Positions 1,567-20,086 of a DNA stretch of 64,000 bases are shown piece by piece. The translations under genes were made by a program, and so were the position numbers. The notes under the pieces are model-generated. The model saw only the letters and a list, made by a program, of their open reading frames with translations. It did not search any database and was not told where the DNA came from. Source of the DNA: Prevotella sp. (lineage in GTDB: Bacteria; Bacteroidota; Bacteroidia; Bacteroidales; Bacteroidaceae). The first letter of the stretch is position 1. Each line of letters opens with the position of its first letter. The stretch spans positions 47,371-111,370 of the forward strand of contig JAGCOB010000024.1 of NCBI GenBank assembly GCA_017645645.1, written 5' to 3'.

Positions 1567-4500
1567 TTATTCTATCGTGAGGTTATCAAATAGCATATCG
1601 TTAATACCGTCTCCTGTGAGGACGACATGGTAGTGGCCGGCATTGATCTGGGTACCTGTCGTGATACTGGTCATCTTACGCTTGGTCTTTTTTTGCTGGG
1701 TCTGCAGGAACGAGACATCGGCATCCTTATACACCACGCCCTTTGTGTCGGTAATGCGGACTTTCAACTGACGGGCTTTTTCCGGGTTGTAGTATTTCCA
1801 TCGGAGTGCATAGACCTTGGCGACACCAACATTAAAGTCCCATTCCATTCTGTTCTTCACTTTCTTGCCTTCCACCTCCATGGCGGTCTTGGCACGCGGC
1901 GGCAACAGGGAATCTGGTGTCTTGACCAAGATGTCGTTGTTGAAGTCTGCCCATAACGATGGAGAGGTGGACAGGATATCCTGTCGTCGGGTCTTTGTCA
2001 TAGCCTGATTGTCATCAGTAGCAATGGCGATGGCGGCAATCATGGCCTGTCCTGCCTTGACCTTGGGGAAGTCAATCTTAATCTCTTCTCCTTGGTTATC
2101 AATTTCTATCACCCGTTGATAGGGCTTTCCATAATGTACCTGTGCCCAGATATCCAGGTCATGGATATAGGTCTTTCCATTAACGGCGACATCAAAGATA
2201 CGCAGTCCTTCTGCATCTTGCTGGCGGTACCACGGCTCTATGAAGTACAGTTCAATGCGGTATTTGCCTGGACTGGCAGGAAAATGGAAACTCAGTTTAT
2301 GACGACCGAAACGGGATGTCTGGAAAAGGGGAGAGGAGACGGCATCGTTATAAGTCTGTGATGCCTGATAGGGACTGACCCGTAAGGAATCTGACTGGTA
2401 ACAGTCTCCCCAGGATTGCGACCATTGCCGGTTGTCTTGCATCCATCGGTTGCCGTTCTTGTCGGTATAGTCATCACCGCCGCAGTTCAGGCGATACAGG
2501 TAGGTATAGCCTTTGGCAGGCATCAGGCATATCTCGTCGATGTCAGCCGTCTTGGGGGCAATCGGCTGATTGTTGTAATGCTGCTGATACATATAGAACG
2601 CATCGGTCGGTTGGTCCCAGATGGTGAAGAGTCCTTTATAATTGAATGGTCCCACTTTGTCAACACGGCGCAGTGCCTCGTCTGGCTGTCGTCTGCCAGG
2701 ATTGTCATGACTGGTGAGCAACCAGAGGAACTGTCCGCAGATACTGTCTCTCGCCTGTTCGGCAAGGAGAACTTTCTTCTGGAGTATCTCACAGAACTTC
2801 TCTTCTGTGTAGTTCTCACCGGTATGGTTACCAAGGGTACGCCAAGCCCCGTATTCCCCGTTCAGCAGTTGCTCAGGTCTCTTCATCTCATTTCCGTAGT
2901 TGTCGATGTCTCCGCCATAGGTACCGCTCCAGTTCTGTACCACGTTCCAATCGGTACCTTCTCCACCATTACAGGTGGTGATGAGACGTGAACTGCCACA
3001 ACGGGGATCCATCTCGCGGATGATGGCACAACACTCTTCGGCAAAGTCTTTGGGCAGCGTACTCTCGTTCTGGAGTCCCCAGAGAATGATGGAGGGGGAG
3101 TTGCGGCGCTCCTTTACCCATTGGCGCAGATGACGCTTGAAACTTTCACGGAACTCGGGGGTGTCGTACCAGATATGGGCAGAGAACTGCGGCCACCAGA
3201 GAATACCTTCTTTGTCAAGCAGTTCCTGATAATGTAGGTTATGGGGCTGGTGGGCGTCACGGAAGGCATTGAAACCGGCATCCTTCACCATCTTGACACG
3301 GGCCTCTATCTGTTCGTTGATGAAAGCATGACTCTGTCCGAACTCATGTTCATACTCACAGACACCATTGATAAAGACGGGTTTGCCATTCAGCATAAAT
3401 CGCTGGTCACCATCTTTTCTGCTGAGCGGCCAGGAGGCGACGGAGAAGCCATAAGGCGTATCGGTACTTTCCGTAGCTTTCCCGTTGCGCTTGACAATGG
3501 TATTGACATGATAGAGATAGGGATGATCTGTACTCCATCGTATGGGATGGGTGACGCTTGCCGACTGGCGGATGGTCTTGGTCTCTCCAGCCTTCAGTGC
3601 TACGGTTTCGGTAAGTCGGACGACTTGTTTTCCGTTCTTCTCACATAACTTGTTGACCAGTTCTATCGTTGTCGCTGTTGTGCTGTAGTTTTTGATCTCT
3701 GTCTCGATAAAGAGACTGTCACAGGCTTCGTTGTTCCATACATGCACTCCGAAGGGCTCAATCCTGACAGGGTCGGTCACTTCCAGTACCACGGGGCGGT
3801 AGATGCCGAAAGGCTGACTGCCTTCACTGAATCCCCATTCACTGCTGCATCCCCCACATACCCATGGCATATCCGTAATGCCTGAGGGATGGGATACCAG
3901 GACGGTGAGCGTGTTCTCTTTTCCTGGTTGTACATAGGGGGTAATATCAATGGTCTCGGTGGTACGTCCGATGTCATGCCGTCCCAGGTTGTGACCGTTC
4001 AAGATAATTTCTGCATAGGTTCCGACTCCCTCAAAGCGCAGGAAATACCGCTTATTTTTCAGATCAGGAACAAGGAATGTCTTCTGAAAGGTGGCATCAC
4101 CATGCAGGTTACCGTGTTCTTTCTGTACGGCACCATCATAGTCGTCGAGGTTGAGGGGAATGTCATTGGTGAATGTCCGTCCGTTGAAGGTGACTTCCCA
4201 GTTGTCGTTCAACGACTGTGTATAGCGGTGTCCCGTAGGTTCCGGGGTGGGGAAGTTGACTTCGCTCTTGCCCAGATGTTTGCTGGTGGCTACGGCAATA
4301 CCGCGCTGCTGGTCGTTGTTGACGGCACAATAGAAATGGTATACCACACCGTTATGCTTCACCACATAACTCTTATGGGCAAACATCTCGTCATAGGGCT
4401 TGGAGGGGATAATCAGGTCGTCGCCTGTCCAGTCCGTCCAGTTGACGAGGTCGCGACTGACGGCGAAGGTGTTGAAGGCATTGTATTCACGGGTGGGGTT

Positions 4501-5373
4501 AAAGGCAGAGAAATAGAACATCACCCACAGGTCGTTCATCCTGACGATCTGGGCATCACCTGTAATCGTCCCGTCACTATCGTGGGCAAACACGGGATTG
4601 CCGTTGTAGCGCTTCCATTTCTTCAAGTCCTTGGAGAGGGCGATACCGATACGCTCCCCTTTGGGATGGGTGTCGTCCTTGCCTCCGGCATTGTAGAACA
4701 TCACGAAGGGATATTGCTCCTCACCCTTGATACGCTGTTGCTTGTCCTTCATCCAGTAAATGGTACTCTTATACTGCGTCAGCCGTTCCCACCATTGGGC
4801 ATCTTTGTCGTCGTAACTCATCAAGGGGGTAGACTGCGTGTCCCACTGATGGACTGTGGTGATGTCCTTGTCTGTGGAGGCGATACCGATACTCAATGGG
4901 GCATTGACGGCTTCATAGCCTGTTCCGGGTCCGCCGATATAGGTGATATAATGGCGGTTCTTGTAAGGTTGCATCTCATAGGATCCGTCCCATTGGTAGT
5001 CGATGAGGGCAGGAAAACCGCCCCGTTGGTTCTGGTCCCATAACTGCTGTCCGTCGGCAGGGTAGGCGAGGATGCGTCCCAAGGTCGTCCAATGTAACAG
5101 GTCGTCAGAGGTGGCAAGCCATGTCTCATAGCCGCGTCCGTCAGTACCATCCTTGCCATTATAGCAGACATAGGTCATCAGCCACTTGTCGCCTTCGCGA
5201 AACACGGTAGGACAGTCTATTTTGTGATAGTTGTCGGTTGGTGCCACCACCATACCATATTTATAGGGCGTACGCACCTCCTGGTAAATGCGGCTCATCT
5301 CTTCTTGTGTGACGGGCTGGGCACCTACCGCTAATGGTAATATAGATAGCAGGTAAAGGATAATCTTCTTCAT
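1567..5373 (-). CDS. Beta-propeller (GH137/GH43-like) + GH2 + malectin fusion glycosidase
   Basis: Large secreted enzyme of 1268 residues with a signal peptide (cut near VGAQ). Residues about 35-370 form a repetitive beta-propeller with blade motifs such as WLATSDDLLHW and IALSKDLKKW, resembling GH43/GH32/GH137 folds. Residues 390-660 are the GH2 sugar-binding and Ig-like domains and 665-960 the GH2 TIM barrel. The barrel has acid/base Glu770 (WGLQNES) and nucleophile Glu840 (LLNGEYGAW). Residues about 970-1120 look like a malectin carbohydrate-binding domain, followed by a beta-rich tail. A propeller fused to GH2 is known for the rhamnogalacturonan II enzyme GH137-GH2 of Bacteroides, and the neighbours fit that polymer. 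The GH2 part is certain; the propeller family is a guess. Confidence 0.85.
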   Translation of the reverse strand: MKKIILYLLSILPLAVGAQPVTQEEMSRIYQEVRTPYKYGMVVAPTDNYHKIDCPTVFREGDKWLMTYVCYNGKDGTDGRGYETWLATSDDLLHWTTLGRILAYPADGQQLWDQNQRGGFPALIDYQWDGSYEMQPYKNRHYITYIGGPGTGYEAVNAPLSIGIASTDKDITTVHQWDTQSTPLMSYDDKDAQWWERLTQYKSTIYWMKDKQQRIKGEEQYPFVMFYNAGGKDDTHPKGERIGIALSKDLKKWKRYNGNPVFAHDSDGTITGDAQIVRMNDLWVMFYFSAFNPTREYNAFNTFAVSRDLVNWTDWTGDDLIIPSKPYDEMFAHKSYVVKHNGVVYHFYCAVNNDQQRGIAVATSKHLGKSEVNFPTPEPTGHRYTQSLNDNWEVTFNGRTFTNDIPLNLDDYDGAVQKEHGNLHGDATFQKTFLVPDLKNKRYFLRFEGVGTYAEIILNGHNLGRHDIGRTTETIDITPYVQPGKENTLTVLVSHPSGITDMPWVCGGCSSEWGFSEGSQPFGIYRPVVLEVTDPVRIEPFGVHVWNNEACDSLFIETEIKNYSTTATTIELVNKLCEKNGKQVVRLTETVALKAGETKTIRQSASVTHPIRWSTDHPYLYHVNTIVKRNGKATESTDTPYGFSVASWPLSRKDGDQRFMLNGKPVFINGVCEYEHEFGQSHAFINEQIEARVKMVKDAGFNAFRDAHQPHNLHYQELLDKEGILWWPQFSAHIWYDTPEFRESFKRHLRQWVKERRNSPSIILWGLQNESTLPKDFAEECCAIIREMDPRCGSSRLITTCNGGEGTDWNVVQNWSGTYGGDIDNYGNEMKRPEQLLNGEYGAWRTLGNHTGENYTEEKFCEILQKKVLLAEQARDSICGQFLWLLTSHDNPGRRQPDEALRRVDKVGPFNYKGLFTIWDQPTDAFYMYQQHYNNQPIAPKTADIDEICLMPAKGYTYLYRLNCGGDDYTDKNGNRWMQDNRQWSQSWGDCYQSDSLRVSPYQASQTYNDAVSSPLFQTSRFGRHKLSFHFPASPGKYRIELYFIEPWYRQQDAEGLRIFDVAVNGKTYIHDLDIWAQVHYGKPYQRVIEIDNQGEEIKIDFPKVKAGQAMIAAIAIATDDNQAMTKTRRQDILSTSPSLWADFNNDILVKTPDSLLPPRAKTAMEVEGKKVKNRMEWDFNVGVAKVYALRWKYYNPEKARQLKVRITDTKGVVYKDADVSFLQTQQKKTKRKMTSITTGTQINAGHYHVVLTGDGINDMLFDNLTIE

Positions 5374-5423: not shown

Positions 5424-7004
5424 TTACCAAGACATAACGACCTTTTTGCCACGATGGATATATAGGCCTTTCTCAGTGGGTCTGCCAGCAAGTTTCCGAC
5501 CACTCAGGTCGTACCATGCATCATCCATCAGATCTCTTTCATCAGTTATCGTCTTGATACCTGTGGGCGTTGAGCCGTCAACCCATTCGAAATAACTGAA
5601 AAACTCACTTGACAACTTTACCAAGAACTTGCTGCCTGAGTTAAGATGGTCGCTATCACTATAGGTGTCGTCTATGCGGTATATGTCGTTCTCACCACTG
5701 GGATGGGCACCGCGGAAGGCAAGATAATTGCCGTAGGGCACCACCATATCACCCTTCGAGTGTGCAAACTGTATGCGGTGCTGAGGCTGCCAGCCAGTGC
5801 AGACATTGTTAGCCTCCAAGGCGTAACGCAAGTCCTCATAAGGATCACCTGTCAAGGCTGGTGTGCTGTTGAAGTTGTTGGAATTCTTCAGATAGTTGTA
5901 TAATCCAGGGGAGAAGATTTTATCGAGATGGGCCCACGCTACAGTCTCTGTGCCCCAAATCATACCTGGTACCTCTTGCTTGAAAAACATCTCGCTCATG
6001 TTAGCCGGTGCAGTGTAGGTCTTCTCTCCAATGGTGACTGCTCCTTCGTCCATCTGCGTGAGCCACGCCTTGTTGATGTCACTGGTGCTCATGTTTTTGT
6101 TATTCAACCAGTCCAAGATGCCAGTGTCGAGGAACGATTGTGCCAAGTAGTCGTTAATAGTGTGACTGGACATGTTGGGGTCACAGACAATCATGCCATT
6201 CATGATCATTGGAAGGACGACAGGCATGGTAGCCTGTTCTTGGCGGTGGCTAGTGGTAGTGCCATAGCTGGTACCGTCGTCATCCATGTAGTAACGCATG
6301 GTAGCAATGAGATCGTAGGGACCGTCACCGCATATGGTGCCGCGGAAGTGCAACTGGTCGCTGAGGTCGTTCATTTCGATATAGCGTTGCACGGCAAGGG
6401 CAGCTGCACCGCCTTGCGAATAGCCAATGCTGAAGCAGCGCCAATCGTCTTTCAGCGGCAGCGTGTTGTCTGCTCCGTTAAGTTTACCATAAAGCTCCAG
6501 TCCGTAGGTTACTGCTTCAATGACCTGCTTTGCCGTTATCTCCTCAGCAAGGTAGGGATGTGTCCTGTCACTCGACACACCGTAACCCTCGTAATCTGGC
6601 ATAATGACGATGCTGCGCTTGACGATGGATTTGTAGGGATTTTTCTCATCGTAGGCGTAGCCTTCAAATAAAGGGACAAGAACAACAAAGTCGGCAGACG
6701 AGGTCGTATAACTGGTGGGACACTGCGAATTGGAGGTGACAGTATAGTGGCTGTATATGTGTACGGATTCGATGGCTGCACCCTCCTCTGGCTCTTTTGG
6801 TGCCCAGCATGCCAATAGTGACGAGAGCACAATGGGCTCCCCCGTCACGCTGGTCGTTGGGTAGTTGAACTTATAGACCATTCTGTTTCCCAGCGTCGTT
6901 ATGTATGGTTCCAACTCGGTGGAAGGCACAGGTGCTTCTGCCCATGCTCCCTGTACGACTGCGCACAGCAGTAAAACTACGTAATATAAAGAATTCTTTT
7001 TCAT
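5424..7004 (-). CDS. Secreted alpha/beta-hydrolase (esterase/lipase-like)
   Basis: A 526-residue exported serine hydrolase, probably an esterase removing acyl or methyl groups from plant glycan. It has a signal peptide ending near QGAWA, the oxyanion-side motif PDYEGYG (136-142), nucleophile elbow GYSQGG with Ser196, and late acidic and histidine candidates in KGDMVVP and SDSDHLNS. The layout resembles secretory lipases. The C-terminus (YDLSGRKLAGRPTEKGLYI) is the short beta-rich tail typical of Prevotella surface proteins, similar to a type IX secretion sorting tail. The gene has its own promoter and lies 50 bp upstream of the GH2 fusion. The substrate is unknown. Confidence 0.75.
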   Translation of the reverse strand: MKKNSLYYVVLLLCAVVQGAWAEAPVPSTELEPYITTLGNRMVYKFNYPTTSVTGEPIVLSSLLACWAPKEPEEGAAIESVHIYSHYTVTSNSQCPTSYTTSSADFVVLVPLFEGYAYDEKNPYKSIVKRSIVIMPDYEGYGVSSDRTHPYLAEEITAKQVIEAVTYGLELYGKLNGADNTLPLKDDWRCFSIGYSQGGAAALAVQRYIEMNDLSDQLHFRGTICGDGPYDLIATMRYYMDDDGTSYGTTTSHRQEQATMPVVLPMIMNGMIVCDPNMSSHTINDYLAQSFLDTGILDWLNNKNMSTSDINKAWLTQMDEGAVTIGEKTYTAPANMSEMFFKQEVPGMIWGTETVAWAHLDKIFSPGLYNYLKNSNNFNSTPALTGDPYEDLRYALEANNVCTGWQPQHRIQFAHSKGDMVVPYGNYLAFRGAHPSGENDIYRIDDTYSDSDHLNSGSKFLVKLSSEFFSYFEWVDGSTPTGIKTITDERDLMDDAWYDLSGRKLAGRPTEKGLYIHRGKKVVMSW

Positions 7005-7157: not shown

Positions 7158-7332
7158 CGGCTTCCAAGGGTTGTTCCGATGGCTTCCAAGGGTTGTGCCG
7201 ATGGTTGCCATGGGGGTGAGGAAAAACATCCATGGGTGAAAGAAATGGCTCCCAAGGGTCGTGCCGATATCTCCTATGGGGGTATAGGGATGCTTCCCAT
7301 GAGTGATGGGAGATATCGGAACACCCCATAGG
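7158..7332. repeat. Non-coding minisatellite with a 22-bp period
   Basis: The 391-bp gap between the esterase gene and the RHH gene holds a degenerate tandem array. The near-palindromic core (CCAAGGG, CCATGGG or CTATGGG) recurs at 7164, 7186, 7208, 7230, 7252, 7274 and about 7296, exactly 22 bp apart. A further weaker CCATAGG follows at 7326. The best-conserved unit is close to CCAAGGGTTGTGCCGATGGC. Apart from the esterase promoter I see no gene in the gap. It is not a CRISPR array: units are contiguous, without spacers, and there are no cas genes. Confidence 0.75.
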
Positions 7333-7395
7333 AGGTATCGGAGTAAGTGACAGATGGCATCCCTTTCTTATATTGACCCGATGGAAATACTCTCT

Positions 7396-7656
7396 TCATT
7401 TCGCATCATCCTCTATAGCCTTAAACATATCCTCTGCACAACAGTAGAGTTCTTCTTCAGGATATTCAGTTCTAGACATGGCTTCCTTGATGGCAGCCTT
7501 AGTTGTCTCATTAGGCTCATGGTACACAATATCAAGCAGCACGCTCTCCACATAGTTGTTCAATGTGCGATTTTCTCGTGCAGCATTGCGCTTCAGTCCT
7601 TCAAGGAGATCAGCCCTTAGACGGAAAGATGCAGGTTTCCTTACTATTGTTGCCAT
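7396..7656 (-). CDS. Ribbon-helix-helix protein, solitary antitoxin-like
   Basis: An 86-residue protein with an N-terminal RHH-type pattern: a beta strand (KPASFRLRADLLEGLK) followed by two helices with ENRTLNNYVESVL. Such proteins are usually antitoxins of type II toxin-antitoxin pairs and bind their own promoter. No toxin gene follows; the DNA downstream is the 22-bp minisatellite. The acidic tail (residues 60-86) could bind a toxin encoded elsewhere. The gene lies between the esterase and the remnant left by the island insertion and may be an older solitary gene. Confidence 0.7.
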   Translation of the reverse strand: MATIVRKPASFRLRADLLEGLKRNAARENRTLNNYVESVLLDIVYHEPNETTKAAIKEAMSRTEYPEEELYCCAEDMFKAIEDDAK

Positions 7657-7771: not shown

Positions 7772-7798
7772 ACAAAAAGGAGTGCTTGGGGCACTCCT
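7772..7798 (-). terminator. Rho-independent terminator at the left island edge
   Basis: Minus-strand hairpin AGGAGTGC / GCACTCCT with a 5-nt loop, followed by TTTTTG. It was probably the terminator of the glycosidase gene now at 15420-18026. The copy next to that gene (from 15405) keeps only the arm nearest the gene, so the island insertion split gene and terminator. Confidence 0.75.
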
Positions 7799-7903
7799 AA
7801 GATGTTACTTTTGGAACAGCCACTCGACTTCTCCGGAGGGACTGTTGAGGCCGCAGTCGCGGGGTTTGATGTCGCTAGTAGTGAAGCCTGCCACCATGAG
7901 GAT
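7790..7903 (-). pseudogene. Duplicated 3' end of the TIM-barrel glycosidase gene (left copy of 114-bp repeat)
   Basis: Aligns without gaps to 15405-15518 with 8 mismatches in 114 bp (about 93% identity). On the minus strand it would encode the last residues of the glycosidase, ending in GPSGEVEWLFQK-like sequence and a stop at 7805. It has no start and is a remnant. It marks the left boundary of the 7.5-kb island and still carries the complete terminator hairpin. The end of the nuclease gene (7875) runs into it in another frame. Confidence 0.85.
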
Positions 7904-10019
7904 TGCGGCAAGCTTGATGGAAGTATTCCCAGATGAATACCATCGACATGGTATCAAGTTCGCAATAACGTAGCAGAGCCTGACGCAGGGCATCATTCAT
8001 TCCCTCACCTTCACAGAACATCAGTTTATTATAGGCAGTCAGGGCAGCACCACCATTGGCGACTTCAAAGTTGTCCTCGTCGGCAGTCAACTGTTCCATC
8101 TGTTCCATATCCTCTTCACTCATGCCAATCAGTTGACCTACAGACGGCAGTTGATGATAAGGACTGTCAACATGGCCGTCAGCATCTATTTGAATCCATG
8201 CCAACGGATCATCCTGACTGATGTTCAGACTCTTCATCTCAGAGGTACCATAAATAGGTTTGCTATACTTGTCCTTTAGATACTGGCTACTGTTCAGAAC
8301 GGCTGGTAGCACCTGTTTGATACTATTACTGCCATGCATCTCGTCGAGTTGGTAGAAATAGCGCTTTACCACTTGCAACAGGTCTACCATATCACGTGGA
8401 CCCTCGTAGAGATCGCCTTTCTTCTCATCGTGGTTATGTGTGATGCTACGAATGAAGGCTATCAGTTCATCCTTATCGCTTTCATTACTCTCAGCCAATT
8501 GTTGGGCAATAGTCCGCAGGATGCTGTTCTCATGGGTGGCATAGCGGAAGATAGTGCCTTCGTCCTGAGATAACTGACGACGTAATTCGCGAACAAACTC
8601 GAAGTTGGGGAACTTCGTCACGTCCTCGTTCAGATACTGTCCGGCATGCTCTATATGTCCATCTTCATGGATGATATGGTGCGAGAACTGGAACGCAACC
8701 TGTTCGTAGGGTTTCATATCGATATAATAAGGTAGAGCAACAGCTGTGGTCTCGAAGTCAATCATGTGTAGCGGATAGTGCCATGTTTTCATTTCTTCGC
8801 GCAGGCCATCCACGTCCAGATAAGTGTTGCCATCGATATGGTTAGCAAATCGGCTGAGGATGTCTTTGTCATTCGTCTCCATTCCTATCTGCAACCATTT
8901 GCGCTGATAGTCGTCCAAGCCTGGTGCATCTGGTGTCTTCTCATTAAAGAATTTCAGTTCCTTTTCAGTCAGTTGGTCCATGAAATATTTTCCTTCGCTG
9001 ACCCATTTGCCACGATTGGTACTAAGACTACTGCCGTTTAATGTGGCGATAAGCGGACGATGCTCGTAGTCATCTTCACTCACTTGAGTGAGCCAGCATT
9101 CACGTTGGCCGTCTTTCTTTTCACTATCAGTAGTACAATGGAACTCACACTTCAGACACTTGCCTGCCAGTTCTATTGGTGCAGGGCAACGATTGCCATT
9201 ACAATAGAATTCAGCTGCCCAGTTGATGAATGGTACAAAGCGCATCCCCATGCAGGTAGGATTCTTTTCCGTCTTCTGCTCAGTGGTCTCGCCTGCAATG
9301 ATGGTATCACAGAGTTCATCCACATCGAAAGGCGTTACTACCTGTACCTTACTTTGGGCTATCCGTTGGCGAGCATCATTCGCCATCACAGCCTCGGCAC
9401 GACCTTGCTGGTTCTTCTCAATCTTAAACAATTGGTTCAGACCATCGATGTCAGCACACTTGCTCTTATCTGCCATCATGAGAAAGGCTTTGACGCTATA
9501 GGTCTCGTTGGGATACAGTTCTTTGAGGGCATTACATACCACATATTTCTGGAATGCCACATCGTAGACGTAGGGACGGATGCCGCTAGCAACAGCACCT
9601 TTGGGCCTGGAACTGATAAACTTATCCGTTTCTGGATTCCACGACTTCGCCTTCACCTCTATCAGTTCGATGTTATTGCCATCCTTCTTCAGAATATCCA
9701 CACGCACAAACAGATTGCCATAAAGGAAGGCAGCCTCTGCGATGTTCACCTGGTCGCGCTGCATCAACTCCTGCGTACGATGCAGCGATTCCTCATGTCC
9801 CATGATGTCCTTCAGGTCGCAGTCATCAGGTACATCACAATACACCTTTGCCAGTTCACCTACTTGGAAACCGCCTTCTGCCAACGACTCTAAGAACTCG
9901 TCGTTGGCATTGGCGTTCTCATACTCGTCCGAATGGCCGTAATAATATAGTTTATGCGGACAACTTAGCGCAATCTTAAACGCTGATTTGGTCAATAATC
10001 GAGAGTTGGTAACAGCCAT
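7875..10019 (-). CDS. Cas4-like (PD-D/ExK) plus DEDDy exonuclease fusion, DUF2779-type
   Basis: A 714-residue predicted nuclease. The N-terminus has the Cas4/RecB-type opening LTKSAFKIALSCPHKLYYYG and a nuclease core with Asp108 (FVRVDIL) and Glu121-x-Lys123 (LIEVKAK). A cysteine group follows (Cys256, 273, 278, 288, 291, 295) that could hold an Fe-S cluster. The C-terminal half is an RNase H-fold exonuclease of DUF2779 type: Asp421-x-Glu423 (MIDFET), an Asp near 546 (DMVDLL) and Tyr685-x3-Asp689 (YCELD), that is, DEDDy. The ATG overlaps the stop of the HTH gene by 28 nt, so translation is coupled. The last eight residues (PHGGRLHY) and the stop come from the duplicated glycosidase sequence, so the native C-terminus was lost or fused on insertion. 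Cellular role unknown; DNA or RNA processing in defence is plausible. Confidence 0.75.
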   Translation of the reverse strand: MAVTNSRLLTKSAFKIALSCPHKLYYYGHSDEYENANANDEFLESLAEGGFQVGELAKVYCDVPDDCDLKDIMGHEESLHRTQELMQRDQVNIAEAAFLYGNLFVRVDILKKDGNNIELIEVKAKSWNPETDKFISSRPKGAVASGIRPYVYDVAFQKYVVCNALKELYPNETYSVKAFLMMADKSKCADIDGLNQLFKIEKNQQGRAEAVMANDARQRIAQSKVQVVTPFDVDELCDTIIAGETTEQKTEKNPTCMGMRFVPFINWAAEFYCNGNRCPAPIELAGKCLKCEFHCTTDSEKKDGQRECWLTQVSEDDYEHRPLIATLNGSSLSTNRGKWVSEGKYFMDQLTEKELKFFNEKTPDAPGLDDYQRKWLQIGMETNDKDILSRFANHIDGNTYLDVDGLREEMKTWHYPLHMIDFETTAVALPYYIDMKPYEQVAFQFSHHIIHEDGHIEHAGQYLNEDVTKFPNFEFVRELRRQLSQDEGTIFRYATHENSILRTIAQQLAESNESDKDELIAFIRSITHNHDEKKGDLYEGPRDMVDLLQVVKRYFYQLDEMHGSNSIKQVLPAVLNSSQYLKDKYSKPIYGTSEMKSLNISQDDPLAWIQIDADGHVDSPYHQLPSVGQLIGMSEEDMEQMEQLTADEDNFEVANGGAALTAYNKLMFCEGEGMNDALRQALLRYCELDTMSMVFIWEYFHQACRNPHGGRLHY

Positions 10020-10732
10020 AATAAGGGTCTTTTCGTTTTATGAATACGTTCAGTCAGATTACCTATGTGGAACTTGATATCATTATCGCCAAGGCAGTAC
10101 CAGTCGTCATCATCGCTTGGCTCCTCGTAATTGATATGATTGCGATATTTTCCATCTTTATCATCTGCTATCAGTTCAGTCAGCGCATCTTCGGTCGCAT
10201 ACCAGATGGCTCCCGCTAATCGCGGATGGTTCTTCGCTAACCAAGGGAAGAAGTTCTCGTCGAGTGCCTCGTAGTTCATATCGCTTAATGGACCTTCTTC
10301 AATAGCATTGCTATAGACATATACGAGTAACGGGAACAATTCTTGTGGCAGCATATCGAGGGTCACATCGTATTTCACACCATTGATGATCAGAGTGACA
10401 TCAAGCACATCGATTTCCTGATAGCCATCCTTGATATCCTCATCGACGAAAAACTCTTTCTCGTCGTCTTGCAGTGTGAACGCCAGCATATCCGTTGTGG
10501 GTTCTGCTGGTTCGTGACACCCTTCTTTCTCCATCTCTTTGGCGTAAAGGGCAAAGAAGTTGGTTTTCAGTGCACGACTGATGAGCATCAACAACTTCGT
10601 ATCTATGCTGTCGCGCTTTATGATATTATACACATTGGTGCGTGTGGTGAAGATGGGATTGGCCAGCTTTGGAGCTTTTACGCCTTGGCGCTTCATCTCT
10701 TCTTCAATGAGTTTTCCAATATTAATTTCCAT
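9992..10732 (-). CDS. HTH-domain protein, putative island regulator
   Basis: A 246-residue protein whose first 70 residues form an XRE-like helix-turn-helix (LIEEEMKRQGVKAPKLANPI, then TRTNVYNIIKRDSIDTKLL), a type common in Bacteroidota. The rest is acidic, with a mixed alpha/beta middle (VTLIINGVKYDVTLDMLP) and Trp-rich pieces, and matches nothing I know. It is the second gene of a three-gene operon and overlaps the nuclease gene by 28 nt. It is the only protein in the island with a clear DNA-binding domain, so it is the natural candidate to bind the TGTC-N9-GACA operators. Confidence 0.6.
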   Translation of the reverse strand: MEINIGKLIEEEMKRQGVKAPKLANPIFTTRTNVYNIIKRDSIDTKLLMLISRALKTNFFALYAKEMEKEGCHEPAEPTTDMLAFTLQDDEKEFFVDEDIKDGYQEIDVLDVTLIINGVKYDVTLDMLPQELFPLLVYVYSNAIEEGPLSDMNYEALDENFFPWLAKNHPRLAGAIWYATEDALTELIADDKDGKYRNHINYEEPSDDDDWYCLGDNDIKFHIGNLTERIHKTKRPLLWLLPTLDY

Positions 10733-10804
10733 AAGCGTTGTTGTTTTAAATTATTATAATATTGTTGCAAAAATAATCAATAATTTCCAATCAAGCAAAT
10801 TATT

Positions 10805-11167
10805 TCAAGAAAAAGGGATAGGCTTGACAATCGCTTCAATGGTGTTGATGACTTGGGTAAGTTTGTCAACATCGCCAGGATTGTATTTGCGGTCTTGTTC
10901 CAGAATGGCTTTCAAGCCTGCCAATGCATCGGCTGGTTCCTCAAACGCCATCTTGTCCAGATGTTCAGGTACTCTTTGGGGGTAATCAGGTAAAGAAGCC
11001 TCAAGCAGTTGAAACAGGAACTTGTAATAGAGCATCATTCCCCAGTTTCCGCTTTCAACAGCAGCACGATGCTGGTCACGTACTTGAATTAAGGGAAGGT
11101 TACGAAACAGGTGGTCACTGATTTGTCTCTGTCTGTTGTCTTTTGTAGTAGGAAAGTTGTACGCCAT
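10805..11167 (-). CDS. Hypothetical helical protein, first gene of the nuclease operon
   Basis: A 120-residue protein, predicted mainly helical, starting MAYNFPTTKDNRQRQISDHL. It has no signal peptide, membrane segment or motif I recognise. It leads the operon (72 bp before the HTH gene) and is read from a promoter at 11210-11217 with the shared island operator just upstream. Its place suggests a partner or regulator of the HTH and nuclease proteins. Confidence 0.6.
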   Translation of the reverse strand: MAYNFPTTKDNRQRQISDHLFRNLPLIQVRDQHRAAVESGNWGMMLYYKFLFQLLEASLPDYPQRVPEHLDKMAFEEPADALAGLKAILEQDRKYNPGDVDKLTQVINTIEAIVKPIPFS

Positions 11168-11209
11168 AATTATTAAATTTTAAATTGTTAAACATCTAAT
11201 TTCCGCAGG

Positions 11210-11315
11210 CAAAAGTACTACATTATTTAATACCTTCCAAGCAAAAAGTGTCAATTAAATGGACAAAGATATGTGTGGAATAATTTTGCTGTTATAAATA
11301 TTGTTTGTATATTTG
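11210..11315. promoter_or_regulatory. Divergent promoters with shared operator TGTC-N9-GACA
   Basis: Minus strand: TACTTTTG (11217-11210) serves the 120-aa gene. Plus strand: TTTG (11285-11288), 19 bp, then TATATTTG (11308-11315) serves the 449-aa gene. Between them lies the 17-bp palindrome TGTCAATTAAATGGACA (11249-11265). The same palindrome type is found before the 127-aa gene and before the AAA gene, so one regulator probably controls all island promoters. Confidence 0.7.
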
Positions 11316-11355
11316 CAGGAGATAATAATAACGTTAAACTTAAAACAAGAGAATT

Positions 11356-12705
11356 ATGGCAACGCAAAAAAAAGAAACAATCGCAGAAAAGCTGCAAAGA
11401 GCTCAAAAGATTATATTGGACTCTTTTGTGGACTCATTAAAGGATAAAGATGGAAATAAATTGAGTTCACGTGAATATTATAGAAATGTTATTAATGCAT
11501 TGAAGATGGAGGAAGCTTTCTCGTCTAATAGGGAAAGAAACTTCATGGAACTATTAATAAGAAAGTTGCCAGCAAAGTCTTTAGCTAATGAAATCGATAA
11601 TCTTTTAAATTCTATGGATGACGCCTTGAAACGTTTTAAATGCAATACTGACCCTAAATACAAAAAAAGCTATAAGACATATGTGAACAAATTTATTCTT
11701 TTTTTAAAAAATAAGGAAAATCAAAATGATTTGAGAGCAAATCTGACTCAGGCTAATTTAAATTTTAAGAATGATGCTGAGACCAATGCACTATACTTAG
11801 ATAAACCCGGTATGATATATATGCCAAATATGTTACGAACAAAACTCCAATCTAGACTTAGGTGTCAAGACAGAGTATCTGGAGATAAGATATGGTTGCC
11901 ATTAAGATTTATAGCTAAAATTTATAGTACAGCCATAAAAATGAACATAATTACCGAAAATTTATTTTTAGATTGGCTTGATAATTTAGTTGATAGTGTT
12001 AATATACATTATAATGATAACGGTAAAGTTCAGCATTTTACAATCAATCAAGGAGTGTCACTATGGTTGACCCCAAATGATAATGAATATGATGTTATCA
12101 TAATTGATCCTAACGGTAAAGAGCATAAAGCATTAACACCAACAGGAAAAGGAAATGAGAAAATACCTATGAAAGTTAAAAGTATTTCTGAAATAGCCAT
12201 TGACCATGTTAAGTCTATTGATCGAACACTTAGAGATTTGTCAGACGAAGATCATTACTATAATGATAACAAACTGCCAGAATTGATGAAGGTCTCAGAT
12301 AAATATAAAGCAATACAAGCGGAAGATGACCCTAACGAGGACGAGGCTATAAAAGAATTATTAACTTCATGGAATAATCCAATTGATCTTCTAAAATTGA
12401 AAGACGAGTTATATTCAATCAAAAAAGATGGGTTGCTTAGGCTTATGGCTTCAAAATATAACTCACAAAAAAGTAATGGAGATACATTTAAAGAAATTCG
12501 CAAAATAGACAATGATAAGTATATTGGTGTTATAGAAACAGGTATTAAGAGAGCAAACTCAAAAGACAATAAAGAGATGACACTATACCAAGAATTGAAT
12601 AATAATTATCCGGCAGAATCTCTTCTTATAGATGTCAGTGGTAGTCTAAAAGGAACAAATATTTATGAGATAGAAGAATTAGAGGATATTATCGACAGAA
12701 TCTAA
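11356..12705 (+). CDS. Hypothetical 449-aa protein, AT-rich, island gene
   Basis: Soluble, highly charged protein without signal peptide or membrane segment. It opens with a basic helical region (KETIAEKLQRAQKIIL) and has a beta-rich middle (residues about 225-255, VSLWLTPNDNEYDVIIIDP) and an acidic helical C-terminal half. I recognise no family. Base composition is clearly more AT-rich than the flanking chromosome, a sign of foreign origin. It is followed one base later by a 66-aa two-helix membrane protein, a pairing seen in abortive-infection systems (cytosolic sensor plus membrane effector). That parallel is inference only. Confidence 0.7.
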   Translation: MATQKKETIAEKLQRAQKIILDSFVDSLKDKDGNKLSSREYYRNVINALKMEEAFSSNRERNFMELLIRKLPAKSLANEIDNLLNSMDDALKRFKCNTDPKYKKSYKTYVNKFILFLKNKENQNDLRANLTQANLNFKNDAETNALYLDKPGMIYMPNMLRTKLQSRLRCQDRVSGDKIWLPLRFIAKIYSTAIKMNIITENLFLDWLDNLVDSVNIHYNDNGKVQHFTINQGVSLWLTPNDNEYDVIIIDPNGKEHKALTPTGKGNEKIPMKVKSISEIAIDHVKSIDRTLRDLSDEDHYYNDNKLPELMKVSDKYKAIQAEDDPNEDEAIKELLTSWNNPIDLLKLKDELYSIKKDGLLRLMASKYNSQKSNGDTFKEIRKIDNDKYIGVIETGIKRANSKDNKEMTLYQELNNNYPAESLLIDVSGSLKGTNIYEIEELEDIIDRI

Positions 12706-12706
12706 A

Positions 12707-12907
12707 ATGAAACACCTCCTTGCAGCCCTCTCCCTCCTGCTATCAATAGCACTGATATGTAGTCCGCTATATTTGGTATATATTGGTTTCGCAGGATCAA
12801 ATGTCAACTTTTGGGTGAGAGTGACGCTCGTGGTGATAGGGTTGGTACTTTGCCGAGTGGTAAAGCCCATCTCTATCATCACGGGCAAGGACTGGAAGGT
12901 GGTTTAG
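12707..12907 (+). CDS. Small two-helix membrane protein
   Basis: A 66-residue protein with two hydrophobic segments (about 4-29 and 36-53) separated by GSNVNFW, ending in a basic tail (ISIITGKDWKVV). The ATG follows the stop of the 449-aa gene by one base, so both are translated from one message. The last 26 codons lie inside a 129-bp repeat. A second copy at 13452 keeps only this 3' part, a remnant of another copy of the gene. Possible membrane effector; function unknown. Confidence 0.65.
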   Translation: MKHLLAALSLLLSIALICSPLYLVYIGFAGSNVNFWVRVTLVVIGLVLCRVVKPISIITGKDWKVV

Positions 12908-12956
12908 AAACCGATTTTTGGTTGCTATCTTCTCTAACTTTTCCTGATCACACTGG
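12828..12956. repeat. Nested direct repeat, left copy (129 bp)
   Basis: Matches 13452-13579 with about 92% identity and one single-base indel. It holds the 3' end of the 66-aa gene and, in the opposite direction, a remnant of the 3' end of the AAA ATPase gene (CDQEKLEK is still readable), that is, the junction of two convergent genes. The remnant lost the AAA stop codon through the indel. Confidence 0.85.
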
Positions 12957-12963
12957 GGATTGT

Positions 12964-13019
12964 TGTCTAAAATATTGACAACAAAACCTTTGGTTGTATA
13001 ATAATAGTTTGTACATTTG
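12964..13019 (+). promoter_or_regulatory. Promoter and operator of the 127-aa gene
   Basis: Palindrome TGTC-N9-GACA at 12964-12980, then TTTG (12989-12992), 19 bp and TACATTTG (13012-13019). From the -7 box to the ATG the sequence closely resembles the leader of the 449-aa gene (both end ...AACTTAAAA...AATTATGGCAA-like), so the two promoters are related by descent. Confidence 0.7.
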
Positions 13020-13060
13020 CTGCCGATAATAGAAACGTTTAACTTAAAAACAAAACAATT

Positions 13061-13444
13061 ATGGCAAGTATTCTTATTGGAATTGTAATTAATCAGAGTT
13101 GTTGTGACCTGGATTTTGGAATAAAGTTGGCAGATGATGTCATTGAAAAGATTGAGCAAAAGTACAAAAAGGCTCTTCAAGAATCTGGAATGGATGAAGA
13201 TGATTTTGGTCCTACTTATTATGAGCAATTGAAAAAAGAAGATAAGGAGTTAGCAGATAAAATTGAAGATGCAGTATGGGATACTTTTTATGACTTGATT
13301 AAGTATGGATACGACTGTGAGGATGATCGTGTTGAAGCCATGTATAGAGTGGATGAACAAGACGAAGAAGGAAACTGGTATCAGACATATGCTATCGGCA
13401 ATAAATTTGAAATCGACTTAACTGATTTTCCAAGAATTTTATAA
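13061..13444 (+). CDS. Hypothetical acidic 127-aa protein
   Basis: Strongly acidic small protein with an N-terminal hydrophobic strand (SILIGIVINQSCC) followed by helices rich in Glu, Asp and Lys, and a C-terminal beta-like part (WYQTYAIGNKFEIDL). No family recognised. It has its own operator-bearing promoter and is bracketed by the 128/129-bp repeats, so it is a separate cassette added between the 66-aa gene and the AAA gene. The acidity would fit a DNA mimic or a partner of the ATPase, but nothing shows this. Confidence 0.6.
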   Translation: MASILIGIVINQSCCDLDFGIKLADDVIEKIEQKYKKALQESGMDEDDFGPTYYEQLKKEDKELADKIEDAVWDTFYDLIKYGYDCEDDRVEAMYRVDEQDEEGNWYQTYAIGNKFEIDLTDFPRIL

Positions 13445-13451
13445 GAAGATT

Positions 13452-13579
13452 TCGTGGTGATAGAGTTGGTATTTTGCCGAGTGGTAAAGCCCATCTCTAT
13501 CATCACGGGCAAGGATTGGAAGGTGTTTTAGAAACCGATTCTTGGTCGCTGCTTCTCTAATTTTTCCTGATCACAATGG
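13452..13579. repeat. Nested direct repeat, right copy (128 bp)
   Basis: Right partner of 12828-12956. It contains a decayed 3' end of a 66-aa-type gene (ending VVKPISIITGKDWKVF-like, no start) and the true 3' end of the AAA ATPase gene, stop at 13528. Confidence 0.85.
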
Positions 13580-15285
13580 CTGATGAGTACTGAGAGGTCA
13601 TCAGCATCGTCACCATGCAAGATGCTGTCGATAGCATGATGGCGGGCGATATTCTCTATCTGACCACCACTGAAGTCATAGCTGGCAGCCAATTGACTGA
13701 CGGCATCGGCTGAAAGCGAGGGAATCATAGTCTGCCAGATATGCTGGCGAGCCTCAACAGTAGGCTTGTTGAACTTAATCTTATAAAGGAAACGACGCTC
13801 GAAAGCCTTGTCCATATTCTGTTCCAAGTTGGTGGTAGCGATGAGGATACCATCGAGCGTTTCCATCTCTTGCAGGATGATATTCTGGATGGAGTTCTCC
13901 ATCTTGTCCACACTATGCTCCGCCATCTCTTGACGGCGGTTGATGATAGCATCTGCCTCATTGAATAGCAAGATGGGCGTCACCTTGCAGTCCTTTACCT
14001 TCTGGCGATAATCATCGAACAGTGCCTTGATGTTCTTCTCCGAGTCACCCACCCACTTGCTCTTAATCTCCGAGACATTCACCTGCATGATGTCACGACC
14101 AGTCTGACGAGCCAACTGCAAAACAGTCTCCGTCTTACCCGTTCCAGGCGTACCATAGAACAGGCAGGTAAAGCCACAACGGAAGCCTTTGTCCTGCAAA
14201 CGCTGGTGAATCTGCTGGTAGTTCTCTTCGTTAAGTAGACTTGTCAGTTCGTCGACCTGCTTGCTGGTAGCCTCGTCGAAGAACAGTTGGTGGGCAGTGA
14301 TGTCCTTATGGCTCTTCAATCCAGGGGCAGGTCCGTCGTCTTGTGTCAACTTGATGTCCAGTTCTTTAAACAGCACACGCTTGGCTTTCATGGACAGACA
14401 GAAAACTTTTCGGTTGCCAAATCCTTCATCGTTGGCAAACTCTATCAATTTACGCTGTTGTAATCCCGTTTCTTCTTTCAGCAACGATGAGCGGTATTTA
14501 CGCCAATCATCGTTCTCAATGAAATCACTAAACTCATGCAATTGGATATGGTTATCGAAATAATTGACAGAACGACTGACCATAAACAACAAGACAATGA
14601 AATCGTAGCAACCCAAATCGTAAACCGACAGCATTTCCGAGAAATGCAATTCCATATTACTGTCAATCAGCAAGTGAAGGCGTTTCTCCATTCCCTCGAT
14701 AGTCAACTCATCATTATTGCGCTGTTCGAAGATTCTGCTCAACTCAAACACCAGGTCTTTGCACGACAGATTCGTCAGCTTTCTTTTCTGAGGCACTTCG
14801 TTATTGTTCAGTGCTTCTACATTATGATAAGGAATACGATAGGTGGGCCATCTACCACTTTGGTTGCAAATCACAAAGTCGCGTTCCACCAGCCCTTCTA
14901 TCTCTTTCATATAAGGCAGAATATCAATGGGGGCACAATCCAAATGCTGGCAGAACTGCATTATGTGAATCTGCTGGTCGTGAAAGAAATTCACTATCAG
15001 GGAAAACATTAATGCCTGCTCATGGTTGATGTCGAGTCGCTTGCTAATATAATTCAGAGCCTCTTCCGCCCCGATAAAGAATTCGCCACTCAGTCTTGAA
15101 TCCTCCGATAGTTTAATGACTGCTTTGATGGCTGCCAACAATGTTGGCTCCTCGTCACCGAAGGTGAAACGTTCTACCTCCAACGTGTCTCCGTCGTCGG
15201 CAGTTATCTTCGTCGTTTTGGTTTTACACTTCTTACCGTTGAGAGCGGCGATAATGCTGGGGTGGATGTCTTTCTTTTTAGCCAT
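13528..15285 (-). CDS. AAA+ ATPase of the FtsH/katanin-like class
   Basis: A 585-residue ATPase. The first 370 residues are helical and unlike known domains; they probably bind the target or partner. The AAA module has Walker A GTPGTGKTE (378-386), Walker B ILLFNEAD (438-445, Asn in place of the first Asp), sensor 1 ATTN (483-486) and an arginine finger in ERRF (496-499). The ATG at 15285 is chosen because a longer reading would start inside the promoter; TACCTTTG sits at 15327-15320. No protease or nuclease domain is present, so it would remodel or activate another island protein. The 3' end is duplicated at 12906-12956. Specific function unknown. Confidence 0.8.
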   Translation of the reverse strand: MAKKKDIHPSIIAALNGKKCKTKTTKITADDGDTLEVERFTFGDEEPTLLAAIKAVIKLSEDSRLSGEFFIGAEEALNYISKRLDINHEQALMFSLIVNFFHDQQIHIMQFCQHLDCAPIDILPYMKEIEGLVERDFVICNQSGRWPTYRIPYHNVEALNNNEVPQKRKLTNLSCKDLVFELSRIFEQRNNDELTIEGMEKRLHLLIDSNMELHFSEMLSVYDLGCYDFIVLLFMVSRSVNYFDNHIQLHEFSDFIENDDWRKYRSSLLKEETGLQQRKLIEFANDEGFGNRKVFCLSMKAKRVLFKELDIKLTQDDGPAPGLKSHKDITAHQLFFDEATSKQVDELTSLLNEENYQQIHQRLQDKGFRCGFTCLFYGTPGTGKTETVLQLARQTGRDIMQVNVSEIKSKWVGDSEKNIKALFDDYRQKVKDCKVTPILLFNEADAIINRRQEMAEHSVDKMENSIQNIILQEMETLDGILIATTNLEQNMDKAFERRFLYKIKFNKPTVEARQHIWQTMIPSLSADAVSQLAASYDFSGGQIENIARHHAIDSILHGDDADDLSVLISHCDQEKLEKQRPRIGF

Positions 15286-15319
15286 AATATATCCTTTCTT
15301 TAAATTATTAATTTCGCTG

Positions 15320-15375
15320 CAAAGGTAAATAAAAGAAAAACAACCTATCAACAAAAACTGTCAATATAATGGACA
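15320..15375 (-). promoter_or_regulatory. Promoter and operator of the AAA gene
   Basis: Minus-strand TACCTTTG (15327-15320) with a TTG/TTTTTG -33 region just downstream of palindrome TGTCAATATAATGGACA (15359-15375, plus-strand reading). Position and sequence of the palindrome relative to the -33 region match the minus-strand promoter at 11210. Confidence 0.7.
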
Positions 15376-15404
15376 GCGTTTGTTGGTACGTATCGTCATC
15401 TAGA

Positions 15405-15518
15405 GGCACTCCTAAGATGTTACTTCTGGAACAGCCAGTCGACTTCACCGGAGGGACCGTTGAGGCCGCAGTCACGGGGTTTGATGTCGCTGGTTGTGAA
15501 GCCAGCCACCATGAGGAT
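15405..15518 (-). repeat. Right copy of the 114-bp island-flanking repeat
   Basis: Contains the intact last 33 codons of the glycosidase gene and one arm of its former terminator. The matching copy is 7790-7903. Confidence 0.88.
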
Positions 15519-18022
15519 GCCCTTTGGGAGGTGCAGGGTCTGGTGACCAGCGGGTAGGGTATACTGGTGGATATTCACCTTCGGCATCTGGACGATGCTG
15601 ATGGCATTGGTGAGCAGTGGCTCCGCCTGTCCGTACTCATTACCTGTGGCATCAATCTCCAGTTTCGGCGCCTTTGCCCACTTCGGGTCGTCATCCTTGA
15701 AGAGACCCACGAGCAACTTCACGGGTTGGTCACTCTCAAACTCGATGGTGGTTCCTACGATGCGTGTCGTGTCACGATTCAGTACGAGTGCCTGTAGCCC
15801 AACCAGTTCCGGGGCAACAGAGTCAACAGGCGTGTCAGGACGGTTCTCGAAGACGATGGCTCCCTTTTTTAAAGTTGAGAGTGTAGAGTGTAGCGTGTAG
15901 AGTTTTACCTTAGCAGGTTGGACAGGCTGGATATAGGTATCTTTCTGTGCAACAGGGTTCTTCAGTTTCTCGATATTAATTTTTAAGGCATCCAGTTCAT
16001 CCTGATAAACGACAGCCAGTTCACTCCATGTCTTCATCTTGCCGCCATCGCCACCTACGGGGACACGACGCTGGGAGGTCTGCATGGAATTGGCATAGAG
16101 ATAGGCGTCTTGCGTGGACATACTCAGTGTGTTCCACCAGTTCTGACTTTGTTCCAGATACTCTACGGCTTTTTCCAGATATTTGATATCCTGTGACCAT
16201 TTGTAATTCAGTACCTGTTGTGCTGCCATCACTTTCCAACGGAAAGACGCAGCGAACATCCGGTAGAAGATCATGTCTTTCCTCACACGCTCGAACTCGT
16301 CGGCATGACGGCTCGGCTTGGCTGTAATCATGTTGACAGCGTCTTCAGCCTGTATACCGTGCTCTACACACTGGTCGACAATATCCAGAGGCAGTTCTCC
16401 GATATGTTGTTCCCCCTTCCATTCCTTCTCGACATACTCGATGAGTTTCTCACCCTGAGGTCCGCAGCTCTCATAGAACCCAGGATAGATGGTGTACTTA
16501 TAAGGATTCACCAGTTCACCCATCGTCATACTAAGCAACAAGGTCTGACGATTGCCCTCTGTGATACCGAAGCGGCGCAGCAGTTTGGGTGCTATCTCAC
16601 CAGCCTCGTCGTAAGCCTTCAACAGTTGTCCGGCAGCAATGGTGTCGATGCCATAGTAGTCGGAAAGCTGTTGCTTCCAGTAAGTCTGGTCTTGTCCGCG
16701 GTCGCAGTTCCAGGCATAGCGTCCCCAGACACGGTACCACATCCAGTCACGGTCAATCTGTAACAAACGTTCTCCGTTGGGTAGCTTATCTGCTGTATAG
16801 GGCCAGTCCCAATAGGAAGCCTGTGGATAGAGATGCAGTCCCTTCGAATGATGCACACGGTGCATTGCCTGGACGGCTTTCTGTGTGAAGGCAGGTGACG
16901 ACCACCGCCAAGGCTCCAGGTTGGCGAGGATATGTACATTGTCAATATGTATCGGTGCTGCAGCAGCAAGCATACGATGTGTCTCACCCCAGGGACCACC
17001 AGGCTCATAGGTCGTCAACGACTCTCCCGTGTATTTGTTCATCGTATAGATGTTCGGGTAGAGTGGGAGGGAGGCTTGCAGCACGGCAGGACCATCCGTG
17101 TCGTGGTTACGCAGGATGATAGGCGGTATGTCCGTCCGTCCTGACGCCTTCAGACCGTCTTTGATACCTGGAATCACTGTCTCCGTCATCCATTTGATGT
17201 CGTTGTCGATACCCGACATCGCCTCACCCAGACAGACCAGGAATCCCACCTTCGGATATTTCTCGATGAAGGCGGCAATCGATTTACGGGTGTAGTCGGC
17301 AATCAACGGGGTGATAGGACGGTTACGATCTTGTGTCTTCAGTCCGTAGTGGTCGGCAAAGGGTTTGCTGAGGATGATATTATAGAACATCTGGATGACA
17401 CGGATACCACGGCGGTCAGCCTCGTCGACAAGGAAGCCGAACATCTCCTGATTCTGTTGCATCGTGGCATCATCGACTTCCGGGGCGAAAGGATAGTCGT
17501 CGAGCTTCACCAAGGAGGCGAAGGGATGACCGTTCCAGAGATAGACCGTGTTCATATTGTTCTCTGCGAGTAAATCCAGATACTTGATCCATAAAGCCTT
17601 GTCATAGAACCAAGGGAAGTTCTCGGGGGTATAAGGATATTCATAGACACGATGACCAGGAAGGTAGACTGTCTTCTGCAGACCTACACAGGCACCTCGC
17701 AGTTTCATCTGTGGCACCTCACGCTGTGTGGTCAGGTTGCTGAGAGTGGGGTCTTCCCGCAACAGTTCCAATAATTTGTTGACACCATAGATCGCACCAG
17801 CGCCATCGTTGCCGATAACACGGACATGTTTGTCTTTTCTGAGAAGTGTGAACCCTTCAGCCTCACCGTTGTCAGCCACTTCAACAGACACATTGAATTT
17901 ACCTTCCTTACCCGTCAACAGACTGGCGGCATAGTTGGTCTGCGGACTTACGTTCTTGACTTTTACCTTTGCATAGGTAACTGGTGTATTCAACAAACAG
18001 AGGGCGAATATCAGTTTCTTGA

Positions 18023-18026
<4 letters not shown>
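15420..18026 (-). CDS. Secreted TIM-barrel glycosidase, family unassigned (GH138-like by context)
   Basis: An 868-residue exported enzyme. A signal peptide (1-19) is followed by a GH20/GH67-type N-terminal beta/alpha domain (HVRVIGNDGAGAIYGVNKLL, 67-86) and a TIM barrel from about 105 to 440. Candidate catalytic acids are Glu268 (LVCLGEAM), Glu335 (YTGESL) and Glu371 (ANLEPWRW). A helical region and a C-terminal beta domain follow. It lacks the motifs I know from GH115 and GH67. Because GH127, GH141 and GH78 genes precede it in the operon, the alpha-galacturonidase family GH138 of rhamnogalacturonan II is my best guess, not proven. The start overlaps the GH78 stop by 4 nt. A heptamer array encodes LYTLHSTLSTL in a linker. 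The 3' end is the target of the island insertion. Confidence 0.7.
15874..15904 (-). repeat. Heptamer array (GTGTAGA type) within the glycosidase gene
   Basis: Plus-strand units GTTGAGA, GTGTAGA, GTGTAGC, GTGTAGA, then GTT. Read in the gene direction it encodes LYTLHSTLSTL without a stop; the reverse direction would contain TAG and TGA. Confidence 0.85.

Positions 18027-20086
<2,060 letters not shown>

Follow-up and report, generated by a model that had tools for sequence, protein, structure and literature searches.

Comparison with Described Systems

IetAS, composed of the AAA ATPase IetA and a serine protease partner, provides the closest defence model to the ATPase encoded by a cluster of seven genes identified in Prevotella sp. 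(GenBank assembly GCA_017645645.1, contig JAGCOB010000024.1). The cluster lies in a stretch of 64,000 nucleotides (nt), referred to here as the window, which is part of contig C24 of a 2.09 Mb genome that is 64% complete. It comprises genes for the ATPase (AAA), a DUF2779 protein (NUC), a helix-turn-helix (HTH) protein, a small fast-diverging protein (U120), a protein with two hydrophobic helices (TM66), the product of a variable gene (V) and an add-on protein (U127). A first-pass annotation, made from the sequence alone, had taken these genes to be one new defence or genome-conflict system.

The cluster was compared with the system models of PADLOC 2023 and the domain families of Pfam; the PADLOC models matched only single parts of it. 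The AAA domain, and that domain alone, matches IetA models (E 3.5e-33), but scores 105.6 bits against the IetA equivalog cut-off of 510, and no peptidase family was found among the seven insert genes (Pfam). On these two grounds, membership in IetAS was rejected. At one relative alone, L050, a subtilase gene is found close to the cluster (L050:19058-21304), and PADLOC includes a subtilase model for that gene.

Nuclease genes accompanied by an HTH protein recall restriction-modification systems with a controller (C) protein, and C proteins are weak matches of the HTH protein (E 0.07-0.8), but the seven genes include no methyltransferase family (Pfam). As for BREX, L127 contains a relative of NUC (42% identity) beside genes for BrxL and a helicase, although no window protein matches a BREX model. 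In that viral-collection contig (L127:7003-17691), the DUF2779 relative has a WYL gene on one side and BrxL, a weak PglZ match and the helicase (PDC-M23B) on the other. CRISPR-Cas differs in that no Cas1, Cas2 or effector family was found among the window proteins searched (Pfam, PADLOC). NUC is a member of the DUF2779 (PF11074) nucleases, while V of L022/L053 matches both PDDEXK_4 and the PADLOC candidate PDC-S26, neither of which is matched by V of the window. Searches of open-licence papers on DUF2779, PF11074 and PF14281 turned up no account of this gene set nor, for DUF2779 and PF11074, of any system centred on that family; broader searches yielded few papers or unrelated ones.

A Gene Set That Recurs in Prevotella

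Six gene families, namely, AAA, U120, TM66, NUC, the HTH protein and V, are kept together as one set. A pattern scan covering 84,980 species genomes returned 14 loci, ten of which correspond to this cluster, all in Prevotella or Prevotellaceae; the other four contain more distant ATPases (40-49%) amid different neighbours. With the window, this gives 11 distinct loci. The full six-family set is present in nine, and in the two incomplete loci (L043 and L044), the contig ends after AAA, TM66 and V. TM66 adjoins V in 10 of the 11. The first-pass annotation had named a failure of the genes to co-occur elsewhere as an outcome that would speak against a single system; the gene set does recur elsewhere.

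Two gene orders are seen. Type I, found in the window, L045, L046 and L047, includes a NUC of ~700 residues (aa) and an HTH protein of ~245 aa, whereas in type II (L048, L049, L050 and L053) the corresponding lengths are ~507 and ~470 aa. L051 is a mosaic, with AAA and NUC of type II and a type I-like HTH protein.

When TM66 alone served as query, 13 of 398 genomes of the genus were matched (E 1e-5), with AAA beside TM66 in ten and the full set in eight. These counts and those of the 84,980-genome scan are not independent, as they involve mostly the same genomes. Among 295 genomes at order level, the window's TM66 was the only one found.

Other arrangements were also noted. In L047 (L047:11789-15399; Prevotella sp. 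P6B1), AAA and TM66 are separated by two surface-type genes, one of which has FGE-sulfatase and PEGA domains. A second hotspot (L046, L047, L051, L077, L083, L130) holds clusters or single parts (a TM66 relative, DUF2779), near conserved small genes of the 73-aa C76 and/or the 187-aa C25 family. In L033, L034 and L036, related ATPases are found amid sigma-70-like proteins, 72-aa proteins and PDDEXK_4-type genes, a different, similar-looking type of island.

One Operator Type at the Promoters

One operator type is shared at the promoters of the system. In the window, TGTC-N9-GACA sites between U120 and V (11249-11265), upstream of U127 (12964-12980) and upstream of AAA (15359-15375) serve four transcription units, namely, AAA, U120-HTH-NUC, V-TM66 and U127, four being also the number of units given in the first-pass annotation. 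Taken alone, enrichment in the window is weak: the pattern has five matches where 1.7 are expected, a count of five is reached by 5 of 100 shuffles, and two of the five matches lie outside the insert. The case becomes strong because the operator is conserved in relatives and because, in its own genome (64% complete), its AT-rich form has three sites that are all in the insert, the reversed control pattern having one site.

Across the 11 loci, TGTC-N9/10-GACA is found up to 200 nt upstream of AAA in ten, compared to a mean of 0.048 and a maximum of 2 in 1000 dinucleotide shuffles; of 12 further promoter regions belonging to the system, 10 carry it as well (shuffled mean 0.031). Since the loci are related and yet the spacer letters differ, it is the arms that are the kept part of the operator. 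A longer form, TTGTC-N9-GACAA, matched only 1 of 42 loci. At related ATPase loci without the cluster, the operator was near the ATPase start in none of 21.

The operator is predicted to be bound by the HTH protein of the cluster. Control by the host SOS response is unlikely, given the confinement of the AT-rich form to the insert and given that the published Bacteroidetes SOS motifs GGA-N5-TCC and CTAA-N5-TTAG differ from the operator (PMC8565304).

Exchange of the V Gene

V is exchanged between otherwise near-identical clusters. DNA of L053 and L048 is 91% identical over AAA-U120-TM66 and 95% identical over NUC-HTH; V itself does not align, the two V genes being unrelated (PDDEXK_4 in L053, C13 in L048). 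The V genes of L049 and L050 are likewise unrelated, and DNA identity between these two loci is 86% across AAA-U120-TM66 and 89% across NUC. This makes the evidence for an exchangeable effector slot unusually direct. The proteins of L048 and L053 are 96, 96 and 98% identical for AAA, NUC and the HTH protein, respectively; because identity drops to 61% for U120 and 77% for TM66, these two may partly travel with V. At the same time, U120 similarity does not track V: the U120 proteins of L049 and L050 are 88% identical next to unrelated V genes, while those of the window and L047, which share a V family, are 24% identical. The idea that each V has its own matching antitoxin in U120 is unsupported.

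The V gene of the window (11356-12705, plus strand) encodes 449 aa and belongs to family C13, also seen in L047, L048 and L050. Family C9 is found in L045, L046, L049 and L051 and, by alignment, in L043; L053 carries a PDDEXK_4 gene and L044 a more distant HNH-like one. L051 has a second gene, of 318 aa, with a relative in L127. V of L022/L053, a PDDEXK_4 protein, matches PDC-S26 with an E of 1.4e-16. C9 and C13 V proteins, which gave no convincing match to each other, are putative HNH-type nucleases, judging by short conserved motifs; library searches bore this out for neither family. V of the window gave no Pfam match over the cut-off and no PADLOC or PDB profile match. Among 150 genomes of the genus, C13 was found in one and C9 in two, always inside this system, such that V is unlikely to be passenger cargo.

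The NUC Protein

NUC (7875-10019, minus strand) matches PF11074 with an E of 1.1e-24 and 87.5 bits, over the curated cut-off of 23.3, and appears to combine an N-terminal Cas4-like PD-(D/E)XK part with an RNase H-like exonuclease part. In 15 aligned NUC proteins, that of the window included, D108, E121, K123, D421, E423, D546 and D689 are invariant, as are C20, C291 and C295, with C288 also being invariant in a set of ten. By motif, we take these residues to be the PD-(D/E)XK and DEDD sites and an iron-sulphur cluster, and NUC is predicted to be active as a nuclease. The short form of NUC in L022 matches PADLOC Cas4 (E 1.6e-6), a match not obtained with NUC of the window, and a PDB profile search with NUC gave no credible match. 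In a published survey, DUF2779 is grouped with presumed 3'-5' exonucleases and a PD-(D/E)XK-like domain is reported with it (PMC3985635). DUF2779 is more widespread than the cluster, being found in 12 places in 10 of 150 genomes of the genus, six of them having an AAA relative ~10 kb or less away on their contig.

The Remaining Proteins

The AAA ATPase (13528-15285, minus strand) contains a classical AAA domain (PF00004, E 6.3e-25) preceded by a long N-terminal part with no assigned fold, for which a PDB profile search gave no credible match. Walker B reads LLFNEAD in all 32 distinct AAA proteins and the Walker A pattern fits 30 of them; the Walker B position occupied here by N usually holds D.

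The gene for the HTH protein (9992-10732, minus strand) overlaps the start of NUC. Its assignment draws on co-occurrence and on weak matches to Cro/CI-type structures, the best being to a designed protein (E 0.0019), followed by HipB (0.026) and restriction controller proteins (0.07-0.8). U120 (10805-11167, minus strand) is assigned by co-occurrence, and TM66 (12707-12907, plus strand) by its two hydrophobic peaks; a membrane role is predicted. In L119 (L119:9001-12696), a TM66 relative (74%) neighbours two proteins carrying the U127-type domain, close to an FtsK/SpoIIIE-type gene and in a region lacking the AAA cluster.

U127 (13061-13444, plus strand) appears to be a relative, in stand-alone form, of the C-terminal HTH protein domain (E 4.9e-6 for L022; 18% for the window's own HTH protein) and is present in only 2 of the 11 loci, the window and L043. 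It is flanked by a duplicated TM66/AAA 3'-end region (12828-12956 and 13452-13579; 99 nt at 94% and 28 nt at 93%), while a weaker duplication (56 nt, 79%) surrounds its relative in L043.

The Insert and Its Genomic Site

The cluster occupies a 7.5-kb insert in a glycan locus, where all seven open reading frames (ORFs) of the first-pass annotation were confirmed. The insert is bordered by 119-nt direct repeats that are identical at 109 of 119 positions, the right copy (15400-15518) lying within an 868-aa glycan gene (15420-18026) and its 3' border, and the left copy (7785-7903) corresponding to the 3' end of that gene. The flanking duplications that had been reported are these repeats. In four relatives (L098-L101), the orthologue of the 868-aa gene is found directly beside that of the gene at 1567-5373 (55-83% identity), with a gap of ~20 to 760 nt. 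Because both flanking genes adjoin in these relatives, the window has extra DNA at this site, as the proposed insertion had implied. The extra DNA includes two ORFs outside the repeats, at 5424-7004 and 7396-7656. At the insert junction, the last residues of NUC have been replaced, such that the ORF end is unlike that of L021. Guanine-cytosine content is 30.7% for V, in agreement with its earlier description as AT-rich, 33.9% for U127 and 44-47% for the other five insert genes, compared to 48.1% for the window.

In G035 (L097), a fifth relative, the DNA beside the same gene carries a HepT/nucleotidyltransferase pair together with genes for type I restriction-modification and a partial match to AbiH; because of these, the site is seen as one that takes up defence genes.

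Pattern scans of viral contigs, which are of limited reach, returned no match for AAA, V (C13, C9) or TM66, and NUC was found at nine loci in the viral collection. On plasmids, three AAA relatives (44-53%, most of the query being covered) occur in other gene settings and NUC relatives are at 22-40% among the matches listed; no match was obtained for V of the window, C9 V or U127. Searches with eight window proteins gave no integrase or transposase match. Within the reach of these scans, a phage or plasmid origin was set aside.

A Putative Defence System and Alternative Explanations

The first-pass annotation was largely right. Its single-system idea is supported for six of the seven genes by their co-occurrence and shared operator, with U127 being instead an add-on. 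Its defence reading is plausible from context, given the NUC catalytic residues, the PDC-S26 match of V in L053 and the defence genes at the G035 site.

The explanation given slightly better than even odds here is that the cluster is a self-contained, self-regulated, restriction-like defence system with exchangeable nuclease heads. In such a system, the HTH protein would bind TGTC-N9/10-GACA, keeping the transcription units in step. Upon entry of foreign DNA, AAA and U120 would recognise or remodel the target, V, held at the membrane via TM66, would make the first cut, and NUC would degrade the ends via its Cas4-like nuclease and 3'-5' exonuclease. Swapping V could alter the target range or evade anti-defence, with core and control unchanged. 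A bolder version, offered only tentatively, envisions a chassis-type, undescribed immune machine in which regulator, operator type, AAA motor and two-domain nuclease would be fixed, and in which a membrane-anchored nuclease head (PD-(D/E)XK or one of several HNH-like kinds) would be swapped whole by recombination, with populations sharing a library of heads.

Several observations weigh against a restriction-like defence system of this kind. NUC lacks a nearby AAA relative in 6 of its 12 places and three of the 13 genomes with TM66 (G042, G049 and G461) lack AAA beside it. In L045, TM66 follows NUC rather than V; L051 is without the operator, both at AAA and at the two other promoter regions where it was missed; and in L046, the AAA match begins only at residue 31. 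Moreover, the HNH nature of the window V is read from motifs, the Pfam, PADLOC and PDB profile searches having been empty.

Chief among the rivals is a toxin-antitoxin or abortive-infection module, in which the V nuclease would attack host nucleic acids while being restrained by U120, U127 or the HTH protein until freed on infection. The small companion proteins, the stand-alone occurrence of an HTH protein domain as U127 and the shared operator are all in keeping with such a module. This explanation is nonetheless unlikely, as U120 does not track V, and it leaves two large enzymes, AAA and NUC, unexplained. Still less probable is a module for maintenance or transfer of a mobile element, in which V would act like a homing nuclease and promote its own exchange. 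The direct repeats at the insert borders, the second duplication around U127, the clean exchange of V and its AT-richness would all fit, as would a report of nuclease genes marking exchange boundaries in phages (PMC10448857). Such a module is, however, at odds with the lack of integrase or transposase matches, with the viral scans and with the absence of V from plasmids.

The repair-like nuclease domains of NUC could instead belong to host functions in DNA repair or stress that share one regulator, but this is very improbable, considering the patchy distribution of TM66 across the genus and the order, the difference between published SOS motifs and the operator, and the restriction of the AT-rich operator form to the insert. 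Finally, a chance pile-up of unrelated genes in an insertion hotspot would account for the position of the cluster and for NUC and TM66 being able to occur apart. This explanation, to which almost no weight is given, is largely refuted by the nine complete loci, which show two gene orders, and by the lack of the operator at the 21 related AAA loci.

Were the defence system real, a multi-gene system lacking a full model in PADLOC 2023 would be added to those described. Clusters of the L053/L048 type, near-identical save for V, would represent a natural experiment on an exchangeable effector, and the operator would offer a direct handle on cluster expression.

Minor Features of the Window

Outside the cluster, 22-nt direct repeats and a 29-nt inverted repeat (7159-7334) lie near the small repressor-like ORF at 7396-7656, which has a weak Arc-like match. 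Within the 868-aa gene, a segment of ~33 nt (15873-15905) finds 84-97% matches in many genomes of the genus and resembles a small dispersed repeat. At 20043, 21353 and 58252, seven-base units are present in three to four tandem copies, two of these sites being located inside large ORFs or at their ends.

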